35,220 nucleotides of DNA from positions 1 to 35,220 of the IMG/VR virus record IMGVR_UViG_3300030107_003762. One strand, given 5' to 3'. The position numbers were made by a program, and so were the translations under genes. The notes beneath the pieces were generated by a model, which saw only the letters and a list, made by a program, of their open reading frames with translations, did not search any database and had not been told where the DNA came from. Origin of the DNA: a virus. Numbering within the stretch: position 1 is the first letter of the stretch; each line of letters begins with the position of its first letter. Shown piece after piece: positions 3,668-27,410 of this stretch.

Positions 3668-4405
3668 ATGAGAGTAAAACAAACTATGTATTTAAATAAT
3701 CAATCAGTAGATAATAATAAATATTTTGAAACTTCATCTGATCTTTTAAAATATTCCGATAAAAAACTAAATGAAATTAAAGCATATAAAAAAAGAACTG
3801 GTTTTCTAAAAAATGGGAATTCAAAATTAGGTCGTAAAATATATGCTTTCGATTTGCCAGCCGTTGTATCTTGTCCTGATTCTTCAGAATGTTTTGAAGA
3901 TTGTTATGCTAATAAAGGGGCTTTTCTTTATAAAAGTGGTAAACAAAGTAATACTTTTAATTTTGCAATCGCTTTAAATGATATAGAATATTTACAAAAA
4001 GAACTAATAAAAGAAATAGAAAAAAAGAATATTAAATTTATTAGAATTCATTCTAGTGGAGATTTTTATTCTAAGGAATATTTTTTAATGTGGTGCAATA
4101 TTGCAAAACATTTTGAAGATTTAAAGATATTTACATATAGCAAAGCCCCACAAATTGACAGAAAATTAATTCCTAGCAATTTAAATATTATTAATAGTTT
4201 TATTGAAGTTGACGGAAACCGATATTTAAATTTTGGTAGCTACGAGGCTATGAAAAAACTTGCTAAAAAGTCAAGAGGATTGCTTTGTCCTATAACTAAA
4301 GGAACTTATTTAGATAAACCTAAACTAACCCCTAAAGAAGGTTTTACTTGTAGTACCTGTAAGTATTGCATAACAAAAAGTAAGCCAACATTTATACAAC
4401 ATTAA
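3668..4405 (+). CDS. Gp88-family phage protein
   Basis: A 245-aa protein matching the layout I know for the Gp88 family (named from a mycobacteriophage gene and widespread in phages). It has a GFLKNGNSKLG segment near residues 45-55. A Cys cluster with the form CPDSSECFEDCYANKGAF is near 68-85. An SGDFYSKEYFLMW segment is near 134-146, and a C-terminal Cys set (CPITKG, then CSTCKYC) follows. Seven or more ordered cysteines suggest a metal site; some authors compare the family to radical-SAM-like folds, and its activity is unproven. The start has AAGGGGTATAAA upstream. It is the largest protein of the early block. Confidence 0.75.
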   Translation: MRVKQTMYLNNQSVDNNKYFETSSDLLKYSDKKLNEIKAYKKRTGFLKNGNSKLGRKIYAFDLPAVVSCPDSSECFEDCYANKGAFLYKSGKQSNTFNFAIALNDIEYLQKELIKEIEKKNIKFIRIHSSGDFYSKEYFLMWCNIAKHFEDLKIFTYSKAPQIDRKLIPSNLNIINSFIEVDGNRYLNFGSYEAMKKLAKKSRGLLCPITKGTYLDKPKLTPKEGFTCSTCKYCITKSKPTFIQH

Positions 4406-7662: not shown

Positions 7663-7683
7663 TACAACCTTTAGAGAGCAAAA

Positions 7684-7730
7684 GCATAGAGCCTTCCCTA
7701 CCCCTATATATAGGAGCAGGAAACCTATGC
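7684..7730 (+). ncRNA. Nested stem-loop, candidate structured RNA or origin element
   Basis: Three co-axial pairings: GCATAG (7684-7689) with CTATGC (7725-7730); TTCC (7694-7697) with GGAA (7719-7722); and an inner palindrome CCTATATATAGG (7703-7714). The order is fully nested. Repeat copies flank it. A structural role is inferred; no known RNA family recognised. Confidence 0.45.
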
Positions 7731-7947
7731 CTTTAGAAATTACAACCTTCAGAGTCGCTTTCGTGCATATAGATAATAATTCAAGTTATAACCTACGGAA
7801 ACCTATTTATTCACTCTTGAAAGTATATCCTCGAACTTGTGTTTCTTCGCCTCGTTCTGTGCCTGTGAGAACACCCCTTTTGGTAAGCACTTTAAAATCG
7901 TTATCGCCAAAAGTATCAAACCAAACCGATAACGGATTAGTAATATA

Positions 7948-13146: not shown

Positions 13147-16050
13147 CTAAATAATAGATTTTTTAACCTTTCTTGTTGCTGTGCTTTCTGTAAAAACTTC
13201 TTCATACTTTCTTCCATCTGCTACAAAGTCTCCAGATGAAGAGTTCCAAGTATCACTCTTTAAATTATTAATATTTGTATAACCGCTTGTTCCATCCCAA
13301 TTTGCATATTTGCAACTTGTTATTTCAAAATCACCCATATAAGTAAATAATAAAGGCGATAATTCTGTTTCACCCATACTGTAGATTAAAACTTTATTAT
13401 CCCCTATTTTAATCTTCCAGCCTGCTCCTAATTTCTTTACTCCGTGTATTGCCCCTCTGTATGTCATTTCAAATCCTGCAACTTGTCCTGTAGTTTCAAT
13501 TTCTACATTTCCATTACCATAGCTAAGAGCAACATTGTTTGCAGGTGTTGCGTTATATACATCAGACTCTCCAGTAACTTCCTGAACTGCCCCTATAACA
13601 TCCTGCACATCTATAACCCCATCCTCATTAAAATCTGCTCTAAGAGCTTGTTGTCCGCTAAGAATATTAAGATCTATAATATGCTGTGCTATTTTAACTA
13701 TATCTAATATAGTAACAGCACCATCTCCATCTACATCTCCTGCAACCTGTAAAGCTAAACCTGAATTATCTTCTCCTAAATAGGGATAAGTGTGATAATA
13801 ATAAACATTAGTGCTTGCTTGTCTATAAAATCCTAACTCACTATCACTTAAATGGTGTAGTTGCATAGCAGTTATTTCGACCCCAGACAAACCTTTAGAT
13901 ACCTGTGTTATAATAAATAATGGCAATATGTATTGACCACATCGTATAGGCATATCCCCAGATTCTTCTAATACATAGGCTTCGCCAAATATTTTTTTAT
14001 CTAAAATCATTTTATCAAAGTTGATTAAATCGCCCACCTCTAATCCATAATATTTTAGAGGAAGAGAAAGCTCAACTATATTATGTTGATTGCAATTTTG
14101 CATTAACAAATATTTAGCTAACTTATTAGCTGTTTGTTCATCTCGTATATATTTACTTTCAAATGTAAGAAAGCTATTGTCGTGATTTAAGACCCCATCA
14201 CTATCTTCGTCAAAACCGTAATAGTTATATGAATCCAAATTTTCATCAGGATCGTTATATGTATTATAATCGCCTTGCAAATAGTAAGCTCCATCAAGAT
14301 AATGGTCATTTATTTTAAATATTTCTGTAGAAGAATTAAAGTTTCCTAATCCATAATCATATTGATATTTGACTTCAACTTGAGTAATTACATCACCAAT
14401 AGGAGTTCTTGAAAAACTATAATCAATAACCTCATTAGCTTTAATCTTTTGAATAGACTCACGCCCATCATAAGTATCTTCTATTGTTATAAATTTTAAC
14501 ATATCGTTAGAAAAAACAGGAGTCATTTTTGTTGAGTTGCAAATTTCTTTAATTAAATCTCTTGCATTTATTTGTTCGTTGATAGAAAATCCCATTTTCC
14601 AATCAGGATGAGATGCTTTAACTAAATCTTTAGAGTCTGAGTCAATATCTCCTTTATACCCACATTCTAAATATATAAGATGATGCAGTATGTCAGTAGG
14701 ATGTTCTATAAGTATATTTCCTGCATCATAAACATCTACAGCTTCTGTATTAACATCTAATACCTCTATTCTTATTGTTTCTGTGTAATCCCATCGTTCT
14801 TGAACAGTATAATATTCCCATTGCCTTTCTGCTTCTTCTGGATGTTCGTACTGATTAAAATCAGGCTGAGAAGCTTTTATAAAAATAGTAAATACATCTG
14901 TTTGCCCTGCATTTACATTGCTTGCGACATATGAAAAAGGAATTTGTATTTCAATTTGATTTTGCTCTACTGTAATTGTTGTTGGAGATGTTGAATCGCC
15001 TTGAACTTGCAAATTTCCATAATTTGCTATAGAATGTTCGTCTAATTCGCCATACCAAGATTCAAATTCTTCTTGATTAATATTACCGATATTTCCAGAA
15101 TCGTATGCGTAAATTTCTAATTCCCCTGCATAATCATAGGTATTTATTCTAAGCTCTCCTGATACCTCTAAGCCTTCTTCTACAAATGTAGGCATTGAAT
15201 AATTATAAATATTTGCTCGCATATCATAAACATAATCAGTTGAATGAAATTTTATAGGTGCATATACATATCTTTCAGAATCGTCTGTAAAAGTTGATAT
15301 TTGGCTTTGAGGCAATAACTCTATATGCTCAATTAATGTAGGCTGTGTGCCAGACTGAAAAGTTGCATTGTCAGAGGTAACTACTGCTAGCCTAATACTA
15401 GCTGCAATATTAAAATTATCAAAAAGTTCGTAATCAATATTGCTTCCATTTCCAAAAGGATTAAGTTGCTCCCATTCAAGCCCCATAGATTGCCAAAAAT
15501 TGTTATTGCTGTCGTTATAATCATTTCCATCAGTAGCATTTATTATAGAACCCCATTGATCCCAAACTCCTGTCGGCAAAGTAACTATAATTGAGTATCC
15601 GTAATTTCCATTTTCCCAATTAACACTCGGTATATAATTAAAATCACGAGAAATATTGCCAAAGCCCGTACCACTCTCTACCTCAAAACTAGGAAGATTA
15701 AAATGGGGTTGGTGAAAATAAACATTTCCTTCGTGTAAAGCATAAGGCAATCTTCCTCTTGAGCTATTTCCGCTACCTGTTACAATACCTGTACCGTTTT
15801 CTACAGGAATAAAATTATCTTCTATTTCGCTAGCAGCTTGCCAAAAGTTTTCCCAATCAAAATTTTGTATACCTGAACCGTAAGAAAATCCTAACTGCTG
15901 TAAATGTAGATATTCATAATCTGTTGAACCTTCAGCTATTCTGCCAATAGCACTATCTATAGATATTGCAGAGTTATCGTGATGTCTTATACGCAACTTA
16001 ACAGGTGCTGTACTAGAAATAACTTCAGTAACAAATTCGCATATTAACAT
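13147..16050 (-). CDS. Large tail-tip protein with internal dockerin-like module
   Basis: A 967-aa protein. Residues 1-430 are beta-rich; 440-740 look like a tail-hub domain, with a LVKASHPDWKMGF region and later NKLAKYLLMQNC and YGLEVGDLINFD, as in other siphovirus tip proteins. Near 768-826 lie two EF-hand-like loops, DVDGDGAVTILD and DFNEDGVIDVQD, each followed by a helix. This is the two-repeat form of type I dockerin. A beta-strand stretch (about 830-905) and a basic tail follow. Dockerins bind calcium and a cohesin partner. Function here (receptor contact, calcium-dependent tip assembly) is inference. TAATG coupling to the previous gene. Confidence 0.75.
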   Translation of the reverse strand: MLICEFVTEVISSTAPVKLRIRHHDNSAISIDSAIGRIAEGSTDYEYLHLQQLGFSYGSGIQNFDWENFWQAASEIEDNFIPVENGTGIVTGSGNSSRGRLPYALHEGNVYFHQPHFNLPSFEVESGTGFGNISRDFNYIPSVNWENGNYGYSIIVTLPTGVWDQWGSIINATDGNDYNDSNNNFWQSMGLEWEQLNPFGNGSNIDYELFDNFNIAASIRLAVVTSDNATFQSGTQPTLIEHIELLPQSQISTFTDDSERYVYAPIKFHSTDYVYDMRANIYNYSMPTFVEEGLEVSGELRINTYDYAGELEIYAYDSGNIGNINQEEFESWYGELDEHSIANYGNLQVQGDSTSPTTITVEQNQIEIQIPFSYVASNVNAGQTDVFTIFIKASQPDFNQYEHPEEAERQWEYYTVQERWDYTETIRIEVLDVNTEAVDVYDAGNILIEHPTDILHHLIYLECGYKGDIDSDSKDLVKASHPDWKMGFSINEQINARDLIKEICNSTKMTPVFSNDMLKFITIEDTYDGRESIQKIKANEVIDYSFSRTPIGDVITQVEVKYQYDYGLGNFNSSTEIFKINDHYLDGAYYLQGDYNTYNDPDENLDSYNYYGFDEDSDGVLNHDNSFLTFESKYIRDEQTANKLAKYLLMQNCNQHNIVELSLPLKYYGLEVGDLINFDKMILDKKIFGEAYVLEESGDMPIRCGQYILPLFIITQVSKGLSGVEITAMQLHHLSDSELGFYRQASTNVYYYHTYPYLGEDNSGLALQVAGDVDGDGAVTILDIVKIAQHIIDLNILSGQQALRADFNEDGVIDVQDVIGAVQEVTGESDVYNATPANNVALSYGNGNVEIETTGQVAGFEMTYRGAIHGVKKLGAGWKIKIGDNKVLIYSMGETELSPLLFTYMGDFEITSCKYANWDGTSGYTNINNLKSDTWNSSSGDFVADGRKYEEVFTESTATRKVKKSII

Positions 16051-17912: not shown

Positions 17913-20375
17913 TTATCCTAAGGTTTTGCCACGCCTAATGGCTTTTTTAATCATTGGTATTGCCTCTCTTTCTATAAAAGATTTACTTAATACATTACCA
18001 CTAAAAGTAACATTTACACCAGCACTTCCTGTACGATTCATTCTGTTTAAGTTTTCTACGCCTATAGACTCTACAGCACTTCTTCTCATAACAAACTCAC
18101 CTTCTTGTGCTATTATAGGAACATTTCCTCCTTGATGGTAAGATGTAATCATTCCACCTGAATGAGCCACACCAACTGCGAGGTCGTTAGCTCCTTGCAC
18201 AACAGATGAGCCAGAAGCCCCTCCAGTTATTCCTTGAAGTAATTCTTGAAATGTCTTTCCAAACAATGTGGGTGCATCGCCTATTCCAAATATAGAATAC
18301 AATATTTGATTGCTTATAAATTGAGTTAAAATTTTCTGAAGTTCTCCTAAAATTACTTCTGTCAATTCTTTCATATTTTTAGCAACTTCTTGTGAGTATA
18401 AAGCAAATTGTGTTGTGGCTTGAACTAAAGAACTTATTTGAGCCTCTCTTTCTTTTTTTTGTGCTTTTATAGATTGCTCAAGCTTTCTTTCAGATTCAGC
18501 TTGGTCATCAAGAGTTTCCTTTAATTCTCTTCTTTTTTTAATTTCTGCTTCAAGCCCTGCTATTTGATCGGTACTTAAATTTTTCCATTGGTCTGCGTGT
18601 TCAATCTCTAGCAATCTAAGAGCCAATGCATCCCCTTGAAGAGTAGTTTTTGCGTCTAATATTGCATTTTCTTTTTGAAGATTTGGAAGAATAGATGCTA
18701 AAGCGAGTTGTTGCCGCATAGTAATTTCTTCTTGTTTTTCTAAAAGTTTATTATAATATTCTTGACCTTTTTCTGATAATTGACGAAGCTTTTCTCTATT
18801 TTCTTCAGTATCTAATAAAACTGCAAGACTTTTGCTATGGTCGCTTACATTAAAACTTACTATTTGATGGGCTAATCCTAGTTCAGTTAACAAACCTGAA
18901 GGAAGAGTCAGCGTATCTTCTAAAAAATTAGCGAAATGACCTGGAGGGAGCTGTTCATACTCATCAAGTATGTTAAACAATGCATTTTGAAATTCTTCTG
19001 CATATCCTTCTGCTTCTGGTCCTAAACCTCTAAATGCATTGTCCATTTCTTTTTGAACTGTGTTTATATATTCCCTAACCTGAGTACCCATCAATCCCAA
19101 TGAAACTGGTGAATCAGCTAAAGGTAATAATTGATCCCAGTCAAATGCACCTGTTCTGTCTTGGAAAACTTCTTGACTCATTAACTGTTCTAAGGTCTCT
19201 ATTTCTCGATTAACACCTGCAAGCTTATCGGCTTTAAGTGCCATTACAATATCTCTCATTAAACCTAAATGATTTACTGCCTTAGCGGTACTATCGCCAA
19301 AATCATCCATATCCTTTGAGCTATCTTTACCCATAGTTCCTAAAGCGTGTATAAGCTCTCCAATAGCTACTACAGCAATTCCTATTCCTGATGTGACTAA
19401 AGCTACTTTCAAAGCTTTAACTCCAAGCATTGCTGCTATAGCTCCTTTTTTTGCAACTAAAAAACCTGCTGCCAATGCAGTTATAGCCCCTATATAAGAA
19501 AATATTCTTTCAGTTGTAAATAAATCCATTATAGCTGTTAATGCTTCTGCAAATGGAACTAATGCCATAAGAACCGCATCTCCAACATTTGATTGAAAAT
19601 TTTGAAAAGAAGCACTTAGTGCTTGTAGGCTTTCGCTTGCTGTACGCTGTTCATCTCCTAACTCACCTACTTTTTCCCTAGCAGATTCTAAAACAGCATT
19701 CATAAAAGCTTGCTTTCTTTCAGCATCTGTTAAATCGGCAACATTTTTTCTTAACTCACGAGCATAATCCATATAAGCTTTTTCTGTCTTTATAACAATA
19801 CCAATATTATCTAACATTAATTTAGATTGACGACCCATACCAGTAATAAGAGATTGTACTGAAGTTACAGTATCTTGACCTAAAGCTTTACCAAGTCTTT
19901 GAGCCATATCAAAAAGTTCAGACATTTCATCAGAATTTTTTGAAACTCCTAATACCATAGCATTGTTGGCTTGCTGCAACAAATCCATATTAGACATTGT
20001 TCCATCTGTTGCGGCAGTTAATTTTTCAAGAGAAATTTGAGCATTTCCTGCTCCACCAGAAAGAGTGTCAAAAGCAGTTTTCATTCCTTCTAGCTTGGCG
20101 GCATCTTTAGCAAATTGAACTAATTGTCTCCCACCCATAGAAACAGCAAAAGAAAATAAAAGCATTTTAGAACGCAAGGTAGCAAATGAGTTTGATAAAA
20201 CACTATTTGTTTGAGCTAATCGTTTATTTCTTGTGCCAAAAACATCAAGTTGTTTGCCTGTTTCTCTAGTTCTTTTTTCTAATCTTGCTTGAGCATCAGC
20301 TAATGCGTGCATTGACCTAACAAGTCGTTTATCCCCTCTGGCAGTAAACTTAATTAGTATTTTTTCTTGACTCAT
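17913..20375 (-). CDS. Tail length tape measure protein
   Basis: An 820-aa protein, mostly helical, with a coiled-coil N-terminus (ADAQARLEKRTRETGK). It has a hydrophobic region near 290-345 (YIGAITALAAGFLVAKKG and following) and a coiled coil rich in Lys/Glu/Gln near 545-650. Near the end are GGNVPIIAQEGEFVMRRSAVE and a Leu-Asn motif that I know from many tape measures. It sets tail length and is ejected at infection; at about 0.15 nm per residue the tail would be near 120 nm. The ATG at 20375 lies 26 bases inside the end of the frameshifted chaperone frame. AAAGGATATA precedes it. Confidence 0.9.
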   Translation of the reverse strand: MSQEKILIKFTARGDKRLVRSMHALADAQARLEKRTRETGKQLDVFGTRNKRLAQTNSVLSNSFATLRSKMLLFSFAVSMGGRQLVQFAKDAAKLEGMKTAFDTLSGGAGNAQISLEKLTAATDGTMSNMDLLQQANNAMVLGVSKNSDEMSELFDMAQRLGKALGQDTVTSVQSLITGMGRQSKLMLDNIGIVIKTEKAYMDYARELRKNVADLTDAERKQAFMNAVLESAREKVGELGDEQRTASESLQALSASFQNFQSNVGDAVLMALVPFAEALTAIMDLFTTERIFSYIGAITALAAGFLVAKKGAIAAMLGVKALKVALVTSGIGIAVVAIGELIHALGTMGKDSSKDMDDFGDSTAKAVNHLGLMRDIVMALKADKLAGVNREIETLEQLMSQEVFQDRTGAFDWDQLLPLADSPVSLGLMGTQVREYINTVQKEMDNAFRGLGPEAEGYAEEFQNALFNILDEYEQLPPGHFANFLEDTLTLPSGLLTELGLAHQIVSFNVSDHSKSLAVLLDTEENREKLRQLSEKGQEYYNKLLEKQEEITMRQQLALASILPNLQKENAILDAKTTLQGDALALRLLEIEHADQWKNLSTDQIAGLEAEIKKRRELKETLDDQAESERKLEQSIKAQKKEREAQISSLVQATTQFALYSQEVAKNMKELTEVILGELQKILTQFISNQILYSIFGIGDAPTLFGKTFQELLQGITGGASGSSVVQGANDLAVGVAHSGGMITSYHQGGNVPIIAQEGEFVMRRSAVESIGVENLNRMNRTGSAGVNVTFSGNVLSKSFIEREAIPMIKKAIRRGKTLG

Positions 20376-21068
20376 TTATATCCTTTTTTTCTTTTTTAGC
20401 TATAGCCGATTTTATAGCAAACGATCTTCTAACCCATTTAGCAGGCTGCTCATCATAACTTCCCTTATAAGGCGGCACATTAAACTTTTCGCAGTATAAA
20501 TACTTCTCTATATCGCTATTTATACCTATGTCTAAAAAGTGTGTTGAGCAGGCAAAAAATGGAATCTGAGATACTATCGATTCAGTTATTCCAAATGACT
20601 TGCCTTGTTTTTCATTGACTTCATTTGTTTCTTTAATTATTAAGTCAATAACATCCCAAACATCTTTCTTATTTGTAAATGTTCGAGTCTCTCTAACACC
20701 ATCAATTACGACAGGTATTTGAGCCTTATAAGGGAACTTGCAAAACTTGCAACCCTCGCAAGTAGATAATAAAAAATTAAGTTCTACTTGGAGGGCTTCT
20801 CGTTTCCCTCAAATAACATTTTTTGAACTTCTAATGCTATATCAATTCTTGCAGCATCATCATATTTTCTAATGTTATTATCAGAAGGATCTTCTAAGAC
20901 CATTTGCAAAATTAAAAGACAGTTATAATTTGGCTCAATAAGCTCAACACCAGTACCATTTTCTGTCGGCTTTACCATTTTTAACATTATATCCTTTAGT
21001 TTTGCTTCTTCTGCTATTGTTATGTCTTTTACTTTTACTGTCTTTTTGTTTTTTAGTTTAATCTCCAT
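20350..21068 (-). CDS. Tail assembly chaperone, -1 frameshift fusion product
   Basis: If ribosomes slip back one base at GGGAAAC (20808-20802), the first 89 codons of the 94-aa gene join a frame that runs to TAA at 20350. That gives about 239 residues. The second frame has no start codon but clear protein character: CEGCKFCKFPYK early, VVIDGVRETRTFTNKKDVWD in the middle, YLYCEKFNVPPYKGSY and a basic end. This is the G/GT arrangement of lambda and most siphoviruses, always placed between tail tube and tape measure. The fusion escorts the tape measure during tail assembly and is not in the finished virion. Confidence 0.85.
20753..20808 (-). promoter_or_regulatory. Programmed -1 ribosomal frameshift signal
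   Basis: Read on the minus strand: slippery heptamer G-GGA-AAC (20808-20802), spacer GAGAAG (20801-20796), then the stem arm CCCTC-CAAGTAGA (20795-20783). A 16-base AT-rich loop follows, then the second arm TCTACTTG-c-GAGGG (20766-20753) with one bulged C. The heptamer is in the correct frame (X-XXY-YYZ), and the zero-frame TAG lies inside the first stem arm. Lambda uses GGGAAAG in the same gene. Confidence 0.88.
20784..21068 (-). CDS. Tail assembly chaperone, short product (gpG-like)
   Basis: The unshifted product is 94 residues: MEIKLKNKKTVKVKDITIAE, then an acidic helical domain, ending NEKPSK at TAG 20784. GGAGATTAAAC-like and AAGAGGATG sequences precede the start. In other phages the unshifted protein is made in large excess over the fusion, and both are needed in a fixed ratio. 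Gene position and length agree with gpG-type proteins. Confidence 0.85.
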   Translation of the reverse strand: MEIKLKNKKTVKVKDITIAEEAKLKDIMLKMVKPTENGTGVELIEPNYNCLLILQMVLEDPSDNNIRKYDDAARIDIALEVQKMLFEGNEKPSK

Positions 21069-21092: not shown

Positions 21093-22094
21093 TTATGCAG
21101 ATAAATCAAATGATATTAAATCGCTGCTACCATCATCAACCGCTTTTATAGAGCAATCTAAAGCCATTACATCACCTTCGGATAAGGCTACATTTGTAAA
21201 TATTCCGCTTGTAACAAGTATTCCATAAGCATTATTGTTAACCATTTTAAACATATTTCCAGCAGTATTTGCTGCTGTTTGTATGTCAAACTCATTAATA
21301 AATCCCTTGGTATTGGAATCGTATTTAACTTGAGAGTCAACAGTAACTGCTATTTCAGGTCCTCTGCTTGCAATCTCGTATCCTGTGCTTGTAGCCCCTG
21401 TAAACACAGCAGGACTATCAATTGTTGCTGTAAATGAGTTTAGCACCATATTTGAAACATCGCTAATTCTAACATCAGAAGCGTTTGACATCAATGGCAC
21501 ATTTGTGTTTGCATAGGCAGTTATAGTAGGTTCTGCCGTAGATGCTAAATCAGGTTTTTTGCCTGTCTGAATAGTAGCAGACCATTTATATCTACCTCCC
21601 TCTGTACCCGTATCCCCAGTTATTGAGAAGTTAGTTACCAAACAACCAAAAAATTCCATTCCTTGTTGGTTGGTTACATCAGATGGCTGAAAAACAAATG
21701 TTAATGAAGAAGCTGCGTTGGTAACTGCTGTGCTTCCTGCCATATTTTGTGAAGCTGCCGTAAACCCTGAAGCAACCGCAACATCACCACTTACATCATT
21801 ACATATATTTTGTAATAATAGTTTATGCCCTGTGTCATTATGTAAAGTTCCTGATAATGTAAATTCCGAAACCCTTAAAACATTGCTTTGAAAAACATCT
21901 TCATCTTTTAATGTTCTTCCTGCTCCTGACCTAACGTCTAATACTTGATTTGGGTTTAGTGAAGGCATCCCAATAGAATCAACATCTAATTGATTCATTG
22001 TACTGCCTATTCCTGTTGCACCTGCATTGGTCGCATCCGACACAACTGCAACTTTCCATTCTTTTGGTGAAAAAGCTTGTATTGCACCTGCCAT
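21093..22094 (-). CDS. Major tail tube protein
   Basis: A 333-aa beta-rich protein without Lys/Arg clusters, starting MAGAIQAFSPKEWKVAVVSD. It has a middle section with SITGDTGTEGGRYKWSATIQ, typical of tube or immunoglobulin-like domains. Its location just upstream of the frameshifted chaperone and tape measure is diagnostic in siphoviruses. Repeated copies stack into the tube around the tape measure. An AAGGAGATAA-like ribosome site precedes the start, and the upstream gene ends at its first base. Family call by position and composition, not by search. Confidence 0.8.
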   Translation of the reverse strand: MAGAIQAFSPKEWKVAVVSDATNAGATGIGSTMNQLDVDSIGMPSLNPNQVLDVRSGAGRTLKDEDVFQSNVLRVSEFTLSGTLHNDTGHKLLLQNICNDVSGDVAVASGFTAASQNMAGSTAVTNAASSLTFVFQPSDVTNQQGMEFFGCLVTNFSITGDTGTEGGRYKWSATIQTGKKPDLASTAEPTITAYANTNVPLMSNASDVRISDVSNMVLNSFTATIDSPAVFTGATSTGYEIASRGPEIAVTVDSQVKYDSNTKGFINEFDIQTAANTAGNMFKMVNNNAYGILVTSGIFTNVALSEGDVMALDCSIKAVDDGSSDLISFDLSA

Positions 22095-26277: not shown

Positions 26278-27410
26278 TAATCATATTCTCCACTAATTGA
26301 TACTGCAAAATATAAATCTTGATTACCACTTGTTGAATCTTTTTTTAACATAATCCAAAGCTTATCTCCTGCACTAAATGTATTGCTAGAAGATATATCT
26401 GTACTTAAATACATTTGCTTACTTGCTACAGGTGTTATAGTTCCTGTTGTTCCAATCAAAGTCAAACCTACTGATGTTGCTTCATTCGCAGGCACACCTT
26501 TAAATACATAAAATTTCAAAGGGTCTGTAGCCCCTGTATCTGATGCTCTGCAAGTAACTCTAATATTAGTAAGTGTACCATCAGCAGCAGCACAGAATTG
26601 ATAGGAATAAGAATCTGTATAAGATATTGAAGTGGGAGAGCTGTCTGCGTTTGACCAAAGATGATAGTTGGGATAATGTTGAAAATAATAAGTTAATGCA
26701 CTATTGTTATTAGTCTTATACCCACCTGCTGTAGTAGTCCATCTAACTGTTCCTCCTCCACCACCTGCTGCACTACTTCCTGATGTTAGCTGTATATCAT
26801 TTCCTGCATCATTTGTAAAATATAATTCATTGGGTGTTGCTGTCTTAACCCATATTTGCCCATAAGCTGCTGTATCTGCAATGGCTGATGCTTTTTCTTT
26901 TATGCTAACGCTACCTTCTTGTGTGCTATTGCCACTAGAATCTAATGCTAGCTTAGTAGCTGCACCTGTAAGGGCATTATAATCATATTTTAATTTATTA
27001 CTATCATCACCATCCCTTCCTATAGTCCAAATCAAGCTAGTAGTATTATATAGACTTATTGCTGAATCATATCCATCTGATGAATGTAATGTAAGCAAAG
27101 CATTATTATCTGTAGCATCTCCATCATTACCTGAATAACCATTAGCTAATAAAGAAAATCCAAGTGCTGTAAAAGAAAGATAGCCTGCTGTACTTTGACT
27201 TTCTAACAATACTCCTTCTGTCATATTAATCTCAGTAGTAGCTCCTAAAACACTTAAATCGCCTTCAACTATTAAATCTTTTTGGAAAGTTACATTTTTA
27301 TTAAATCTAACAGCATCTTTAGATAGTTCAATAGGCACATTAGCCCCATCTATTTGAATAGGGCTAAGATGCTTATCGAGAACATTACTTATCTTTAACT
27401 CTTTGCTCAT
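26277..27410 (-). CDS. Tail fibre-like protein, 377 aa
   Basis: The N-terminal part has the common fibre pattern FQKDLIVEGDLSVLGATTEI (about 42-61), followed by repeats on Asn/Asp/Gly/Ser. A Gly-rich joint (SSAAGGGGGTVRW, near 213) leads to a C-terminal module with TLTNIRVTCRAS and LKFYVFKG. Such proteins usually contact the host surface. No carbohydrate-cleaving motif is apparent. It overlaps its upstream neighbour by four bases (ATGA). Confidence 0.7.
   Translation of the reverse strand: MSKELKISNVLDKHLSPIQIDGANVPIELSKDAVRFNKNVTFQKDLIVEGDLSVLGATTEINMTEGVLLESQSTAGYLSFTALGFSLLANGYSGNDGDATDNNALLTLHSSDGYDSAISLYNTTSLIWTIGRDGDDSNKLKYDYNALTGAATKLALDSSGNSTQEGSVSIKEKASAIADTAAYGQIWVKTATPNELYFTNDAGNDIQLTSGSSAAGGGGGTVRWTTTAGGYKTNNNSALTYYFQHYPNYHLWSNADSSPTSISYTDSYSYQFCAAADGTLTNIRVTCRASDTGATDPLKFYVFKGVPANEATSVGLTLIGTTGTITPVASKQMYLSTDISSSNTFSAGDKLWIMLKKDSTSGNQDLYFAVSISGEYD

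Follow-up and report, generated by a model that had tools for sequence, protein, structure and literature searches.

A tail assembly chaperone gene expressed by a programmed −1 ribosomal frameshift of the lambda G/GT type is the best reading, at a probability of about 96%, of two overlapping open reading frames (ORFs) on the minus strand of the viral DNA stretch analyzed here (35,220 nt; hereafter, the window). We favor this reading because of the anatomy of the site, its conservation, the coding signature of the −1 frame, a hairpin more stable than the encoded protein needs, the chaperone-like predicted fold of the first product, and the map position. That ribosomes slip here, how often they do so, and what the two products do are inferred. 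A −1 slip in the tail chaperone is common to lambda and many other tailed phages; the feature is thus ordinary for tailed phages and of a familiar kind, found here in uncultivated ones. A preliminary description of the same DNA had called it a textbook −1 frameshift, and the term is fair in view of the site kept in 36 relatives, the fold, and the gene order. The positions of the features are listed in Table 1.

Table 1. Features of the frameshift locus and its neighbors (window coordinates)
Feature	Position	Strand	Remarks
Tape measure protein, 820 aa	17913–20375	minus	PHROG 3779 tail length tape measure, E 1.3e-14
−1 frame ORF, 152 codons, T-like domain	20350–20808	minus	joined to the first ORF by a −1 shift (predicted)
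Stimulatory hairpin (predicted role)	20753–20795	minus	5′ arm 20783–20795; 16-nt loop 20767–20782; 3′ arm 20753–20766; bulged C 20758
Zero-frame stop TAG	20784–20786	minus	within the 5′ arm of the hairpin
Zero-frame ORF, 94 aa, predicted tail assembly chaperone (G-like product)	20784–21068	minus	GAGGA SD-like sequence upstream; predicted fold
Spacer GAGAAG, 6 nt	20796–20801	minus	in the GGGAAAC clade, length identical and sequence near-identical
Slippery heptamer G_GGA_AAC	20802–20808	minus	in zero-frame phase; identical in 14 relatives, G_GGG_GAA in 22
Probable major tail tube protein	21093–22094	minus	Pfam Phage_tube_2, E 1.4e-5, slightly below the curated cut-off

Slippery site and hairpin

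The frameshift gene lies between a tail-tube-like gene upstream and the tape measure gene downstream. This gene order is the usual one, and the position is also that at which the preliminary description had placed the device by reference to lambda G/GT. A terminase and a major capsid protein are also encoded in the window. Elsewhere, a 967-aa tail protein (13147–16050) matches the Pfam Dockerin type I/EF-hand domain at 30.3 bits (cut-off 22.9); such a domain is, to our knowledge, unusual in a phage tail.

The heptamer GGGAAAC occurs once in the window. It is read as GAG GGA AAC in the zero frame, ahead of the first stop, and both its phase and the six-base spacer agree with the preliminary description. 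Bare GGGAAAC was present in 84 of 100 shuffled windows, with 1.9 occurrences expected per shuffled window; therefore, the heptamer alone is no evidence. However, of all the XXXYYYZ heptamers that stand in phase within 22 ORFs (57 in total), it is this site that has by far the strongest downstream structure (−24.5 kcal/mol, against −20.4 kcal/mol for the next).

The hairpin consists of CCCUC and CAAGUAGA in the 5′ arm, paired with UCUACUUG, a bulged C, and GAGGG in the 3′ arm. Every count given earlier for this stem-loop (8 + 5 pairs, one bulged C, and a 16-base loop) was reproduced, as was the statement that the zero-frame stop is hidden in the stem. The hairpin is more stable than dinucleotide shuffles of its sequence (z = −3.8; 0 of 200 shuffles equally stable) and its folding energy is among the lowest 0.11% for 64-nt windows of the minus strand. 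Only two other minus-strand windows are equally stable, at 7667–7745 and 27317–27390 (−30.4 and −26.4 kcal/mol). When the overlap was held fixed and the rest of the −1 protein was recoded synonymously, 0.2% of the recodings were equally stable (z −3.05), and the hairpins of the GGGAAAC clade gave z values from −2.1 to −3.8 in the same type of control. These controls were used in place of column-by-column covariation, as the 3′ arm re-pairs in clade-specific registers. A stable structure beyond coding needs is thus found 6 nt past the heptamer, within the 5–9 nt expected of a hairpin-stimulated −1 frameshift; this is less clear in the L038 and L044/L048 clades, where the hairpin barely exceeds the recoded controls in strength. 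A pseudoknot between loop AACUU and a downstream AAGUU appeared possible by eye in the window and was dropped, its partner being absent from relatives such as L021.

The two predicted products

The predicted structure of the 94-aa protein has a pLDDT of 87 and matches predicted viral proteins in BFVD. Many of the named matches listed are tail assembly chaperones, including Mu FS-gp41, itself a probable frameshift product, and proteins of Bacillus, Mycobacterium, and Arthrobacter phages. These matches are individually weak (E 0.03–1, probability up to 0.98; best named match E 0.03), but they are consistent together, and it is this pattern that points to a tail assembly chaperone as the first product. 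With the tube and tape measure neighbors, it agrees with the gene identity proposed in the preliminary description. Neither ORF of the window passes the chaperone models of Pfam and PHROG, a sequence search of the PDB gave no convincing relatives, and a fold comparison of the first domain against the PDB gave weak matches throughout (best Z 4.4). The −1 domain of one relative matched PHROG 9001, "tail assembly chaperone", with E 9e-4. The first protein has diverged to 18–24% identity among the relatives, with the Gly of the slip site kept. Judged by sequence, this putative chaperone family is unnamed and goes unrecognized by Pfam and PHROGs.

From the slip site onward the −1 frame stays open; it is coding, conserved, and without a start of its own. 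It overlaps the tape measure ATG (20375) by 26 nt, and its first ATG, GTG, or TTG is a GTG at codon 111 (0-based 110), so the earlier account of a frame of about 150 codons reaching the tape measure start without its own start codon holds. The annotation gap of 430 bp given there came to 408 bp on recount. Substitutions between close relatives are biased to the third positions of the −1 frame (25/16/58 in one example). Twenty-nine residues are invariant over 25 sequences, including Cys17, Cys20, Cys87, and Cys106. These four Cys residues, found in CxGC, FFxC, and YCEKFN, form a possible metal site. The predicted model of the −1 domain (pLDDT 61) is too poor to interpret, and its sole strong match is a sequence relative. 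Its top viral structure match in BFVD is A0A516LCZ5, a deposited 108-aa viral protein with 68% identity over 104 columns; this record is probably a truncated call of the −1 frame that starts at an internal ATG, near codon 46.

In the proposed mechanism, most ribosomes would terminate at the TAG within the hairpin and release the 94-aa protein. The hairpin would stand unmelted about 6 nt ahead of a ribosome on G_GGA_AAC, and a minority of ribosomes would slip back one base there, with the P-site GGA and A-site AAC tRNAs re-pairing on GGG and AAA. The slipped ribosomes would then read 150 further codons to give a fusion of about 239 aa, for which a tandem slip predicts the junction peptide ..LFEGNREALQVELN... 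If the products act as in lambda, the first domain would bind the tape measure protein, the part made only by frameshifting would recruit tail tube subunits, and the slip rate would set the ratio between the two products.

Conservation in related phages

IMG/VR was searched with the tape measure protein, the −1 ORF, and a profile, and the profile search gave 38 loci, 36 of which include the site. Loci found through the tape measure protein or the distant YCEKFN motif were chosen independently of the site, while a second pattern, GKRE[AT]LQV, touches it. All 36 have a slippery heptamer at the same base and in the same phase (GGGAAAC in 14 and GGGGGAA in 22), a hairpin-forming region, and an open −1 frame. 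This is the comparison that had been proposed as a check on the feature, and since the device is kept in all 36, we regard the observation as settled. The −1 frame spans 148–161 codons in the relatives; in L055, which is truncated by the contig end, it is open to that end at 81 codons. No relatives of the −1 protein were found among 50,697 named phage records with the sequence of the window or of L048 as the query, nor in bacterial and archaeal genomes by one pattern scan.

A one-base sequencing or assembly mistake could split one continuous gene, and a one-base shift next to an error-prone run of G is what such a mistake would look like. However, the frame changes at the same base in 36 other contigs with two different heptamers, and the zero-frame stop has a common position in all distinct relatives tested except L053. 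In that locus (L053:2967–2976), the TAG directly follows the slippery GGGGGAA; in all others, the stop comes 15 nt later, within the stem. With this conservation, an error is ruled out for practical purposes.

Alternatively, the −1 ORF could be a gene in its own right whose translation begins by re-initiation or at a non-canonical start. Termination within the upstream ORF could permit such coupling, and the 108-aa record mentioned above, if it starts at the internal ATG as we infer, would fit. However, no ATG, GTG, or TTG is conserved in the frame, and seven relatives (L031–L034, L036, L039, and L047) have none in its whole length. Moreover, the conserved residues start directly past the heptamer (LQVELN), and in the window and the GGGAAAC clade a TGA closes the −1 frame immediately before it. 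Because relatives lack start codons and the −1 protein is conserved from the slip onward, re-initiation is very unlikely.

The five-G run of the sister clade would also suit transcriptional rather than ribosomal slippage as the source of the fusion. However, the longest homopolymer in GGGAAAC is three, and the hairpin spacing suits a ribosomal stimulator; slippage of the polymerase is hardly credible here, and the programmed ribosomal frameshift remains our reading of the locus.

Known systems and a possible exchange of signals

The heptamer of lambda is GGGAAAG, and E. coli dnaX has an upstream SD stimulator besides its hairpin; the site of the window differs from the former by its GGGAAAC and from the latter by lacking an SD stimulator. 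Lambda is not known for a strong conserved hairpin such as the present one, the second domain here has conserved Cys residues, and no sequence similarity to lambda G or G-T was detected by profile. The two systems are alike in the position between tube and tape measure, the −1 slip of the XXXYYYZ type late in the first ORF, and the frameshift-only second domain (PMC5009743). For lambda, binding to the tape measure falls to the G part and binding to the tube subunit to the T part, at a ratio of about 30:1 (PMC5009743). The simple 3′ stem-loop recalls the stimulator of dnaX, although the gene and heptamer are different (PMC5009743). The reported g-t shift site of the haloarchaeal siphovirus HCTV-1, G_GGA_AAC, is identical to that of the window, but its host is archaeal and the likeness concerns the shift site alone (PMC5009743). 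The AAC second codon may slip poorly because A_AAA_AAC is less shifty than A_AAA_AAG in E. coli (PMC5009743), which may not be the host.

GGGGGAA is the "fivetwo" slippery motif of the SEA-PHAGES annotated frameshifts in the PRFect paper (PMC10885494) and the proposed site of corynephage phi16 gp14A, for which an internal SD plus a pseudoknot were proposed (PMC5506516). The chaperone gene of the diverged relatives has exactly this motif, in contrast to the GGGAAAC of the window's clade. In a separate record, Rhodobacteraceae phage LS06-2018-MD06 (OP947162.1; L070:2976–3913), the ORF ahead of the tape measure is annotated "ribonucleotide reductase" and ends in GAAGAAAAAAAAGCATAA. A Cys-rich −1 frame is open there from 3311 to the tape measure ATG at 3914, where the record annotates only two short ORFs. 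From its sequence, this resembles a chaperone frameshift on an A-run that the annotation missed.

In a tree of the −1 protein, all GGGAAAC members are grouped (support 100/95) and adjoin a GGGGGAA group, which is consistent with one slippery-site switch within the chaperone family; the tree is midpoint-rooted and does not give the direction of the switch. The stimulators may differ as well. In the GGGAAAC group, an upstream SD-like element is lacking and the hairpin goes well beyond coding needs; in the window, no anti-SD pairing of note was found about 10–14 nt upstream of the heptamer (−0.5 kcal/mol). In the L038 group, AAGGAG lies 12 nt upstream (−8.5 kcal/mol) and the hairpin has a z of about −1 against recoded controls; L048 is similar, with an SD-like element at a gap of 10 (−6.9 kcal/mol) and a hairpin z of −0.6. 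The SD-like sequences of both also encode protein, so an exchange of an SD-like element and a hairpin as stimulators is suggested as a lead only. That the family swapped both the heptamer (GGGGGAA versus GGGAAAC) and the stimulator (in one state a weaker hairpin plus an upstream SD-like element, in the other a strong hairpin and no SD), with the slip base unchanged, is a tentative proposal that we consider rather doubtful as a whole.

The analysis brings to light a coding frame of 152 codons in a group of uncultivated phages and identifies their putative chaperone family. The slippery-site switch within the family, together with the possible change of stimulator, is mildly new. If true, the swap would be a natural record of the rebuilding of a frameshift signal under a constant required product ratio. 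The range of sites across the relatives forms a small natural series in which to ask how the slip rate is kept as the heptamer and the stimulator change.
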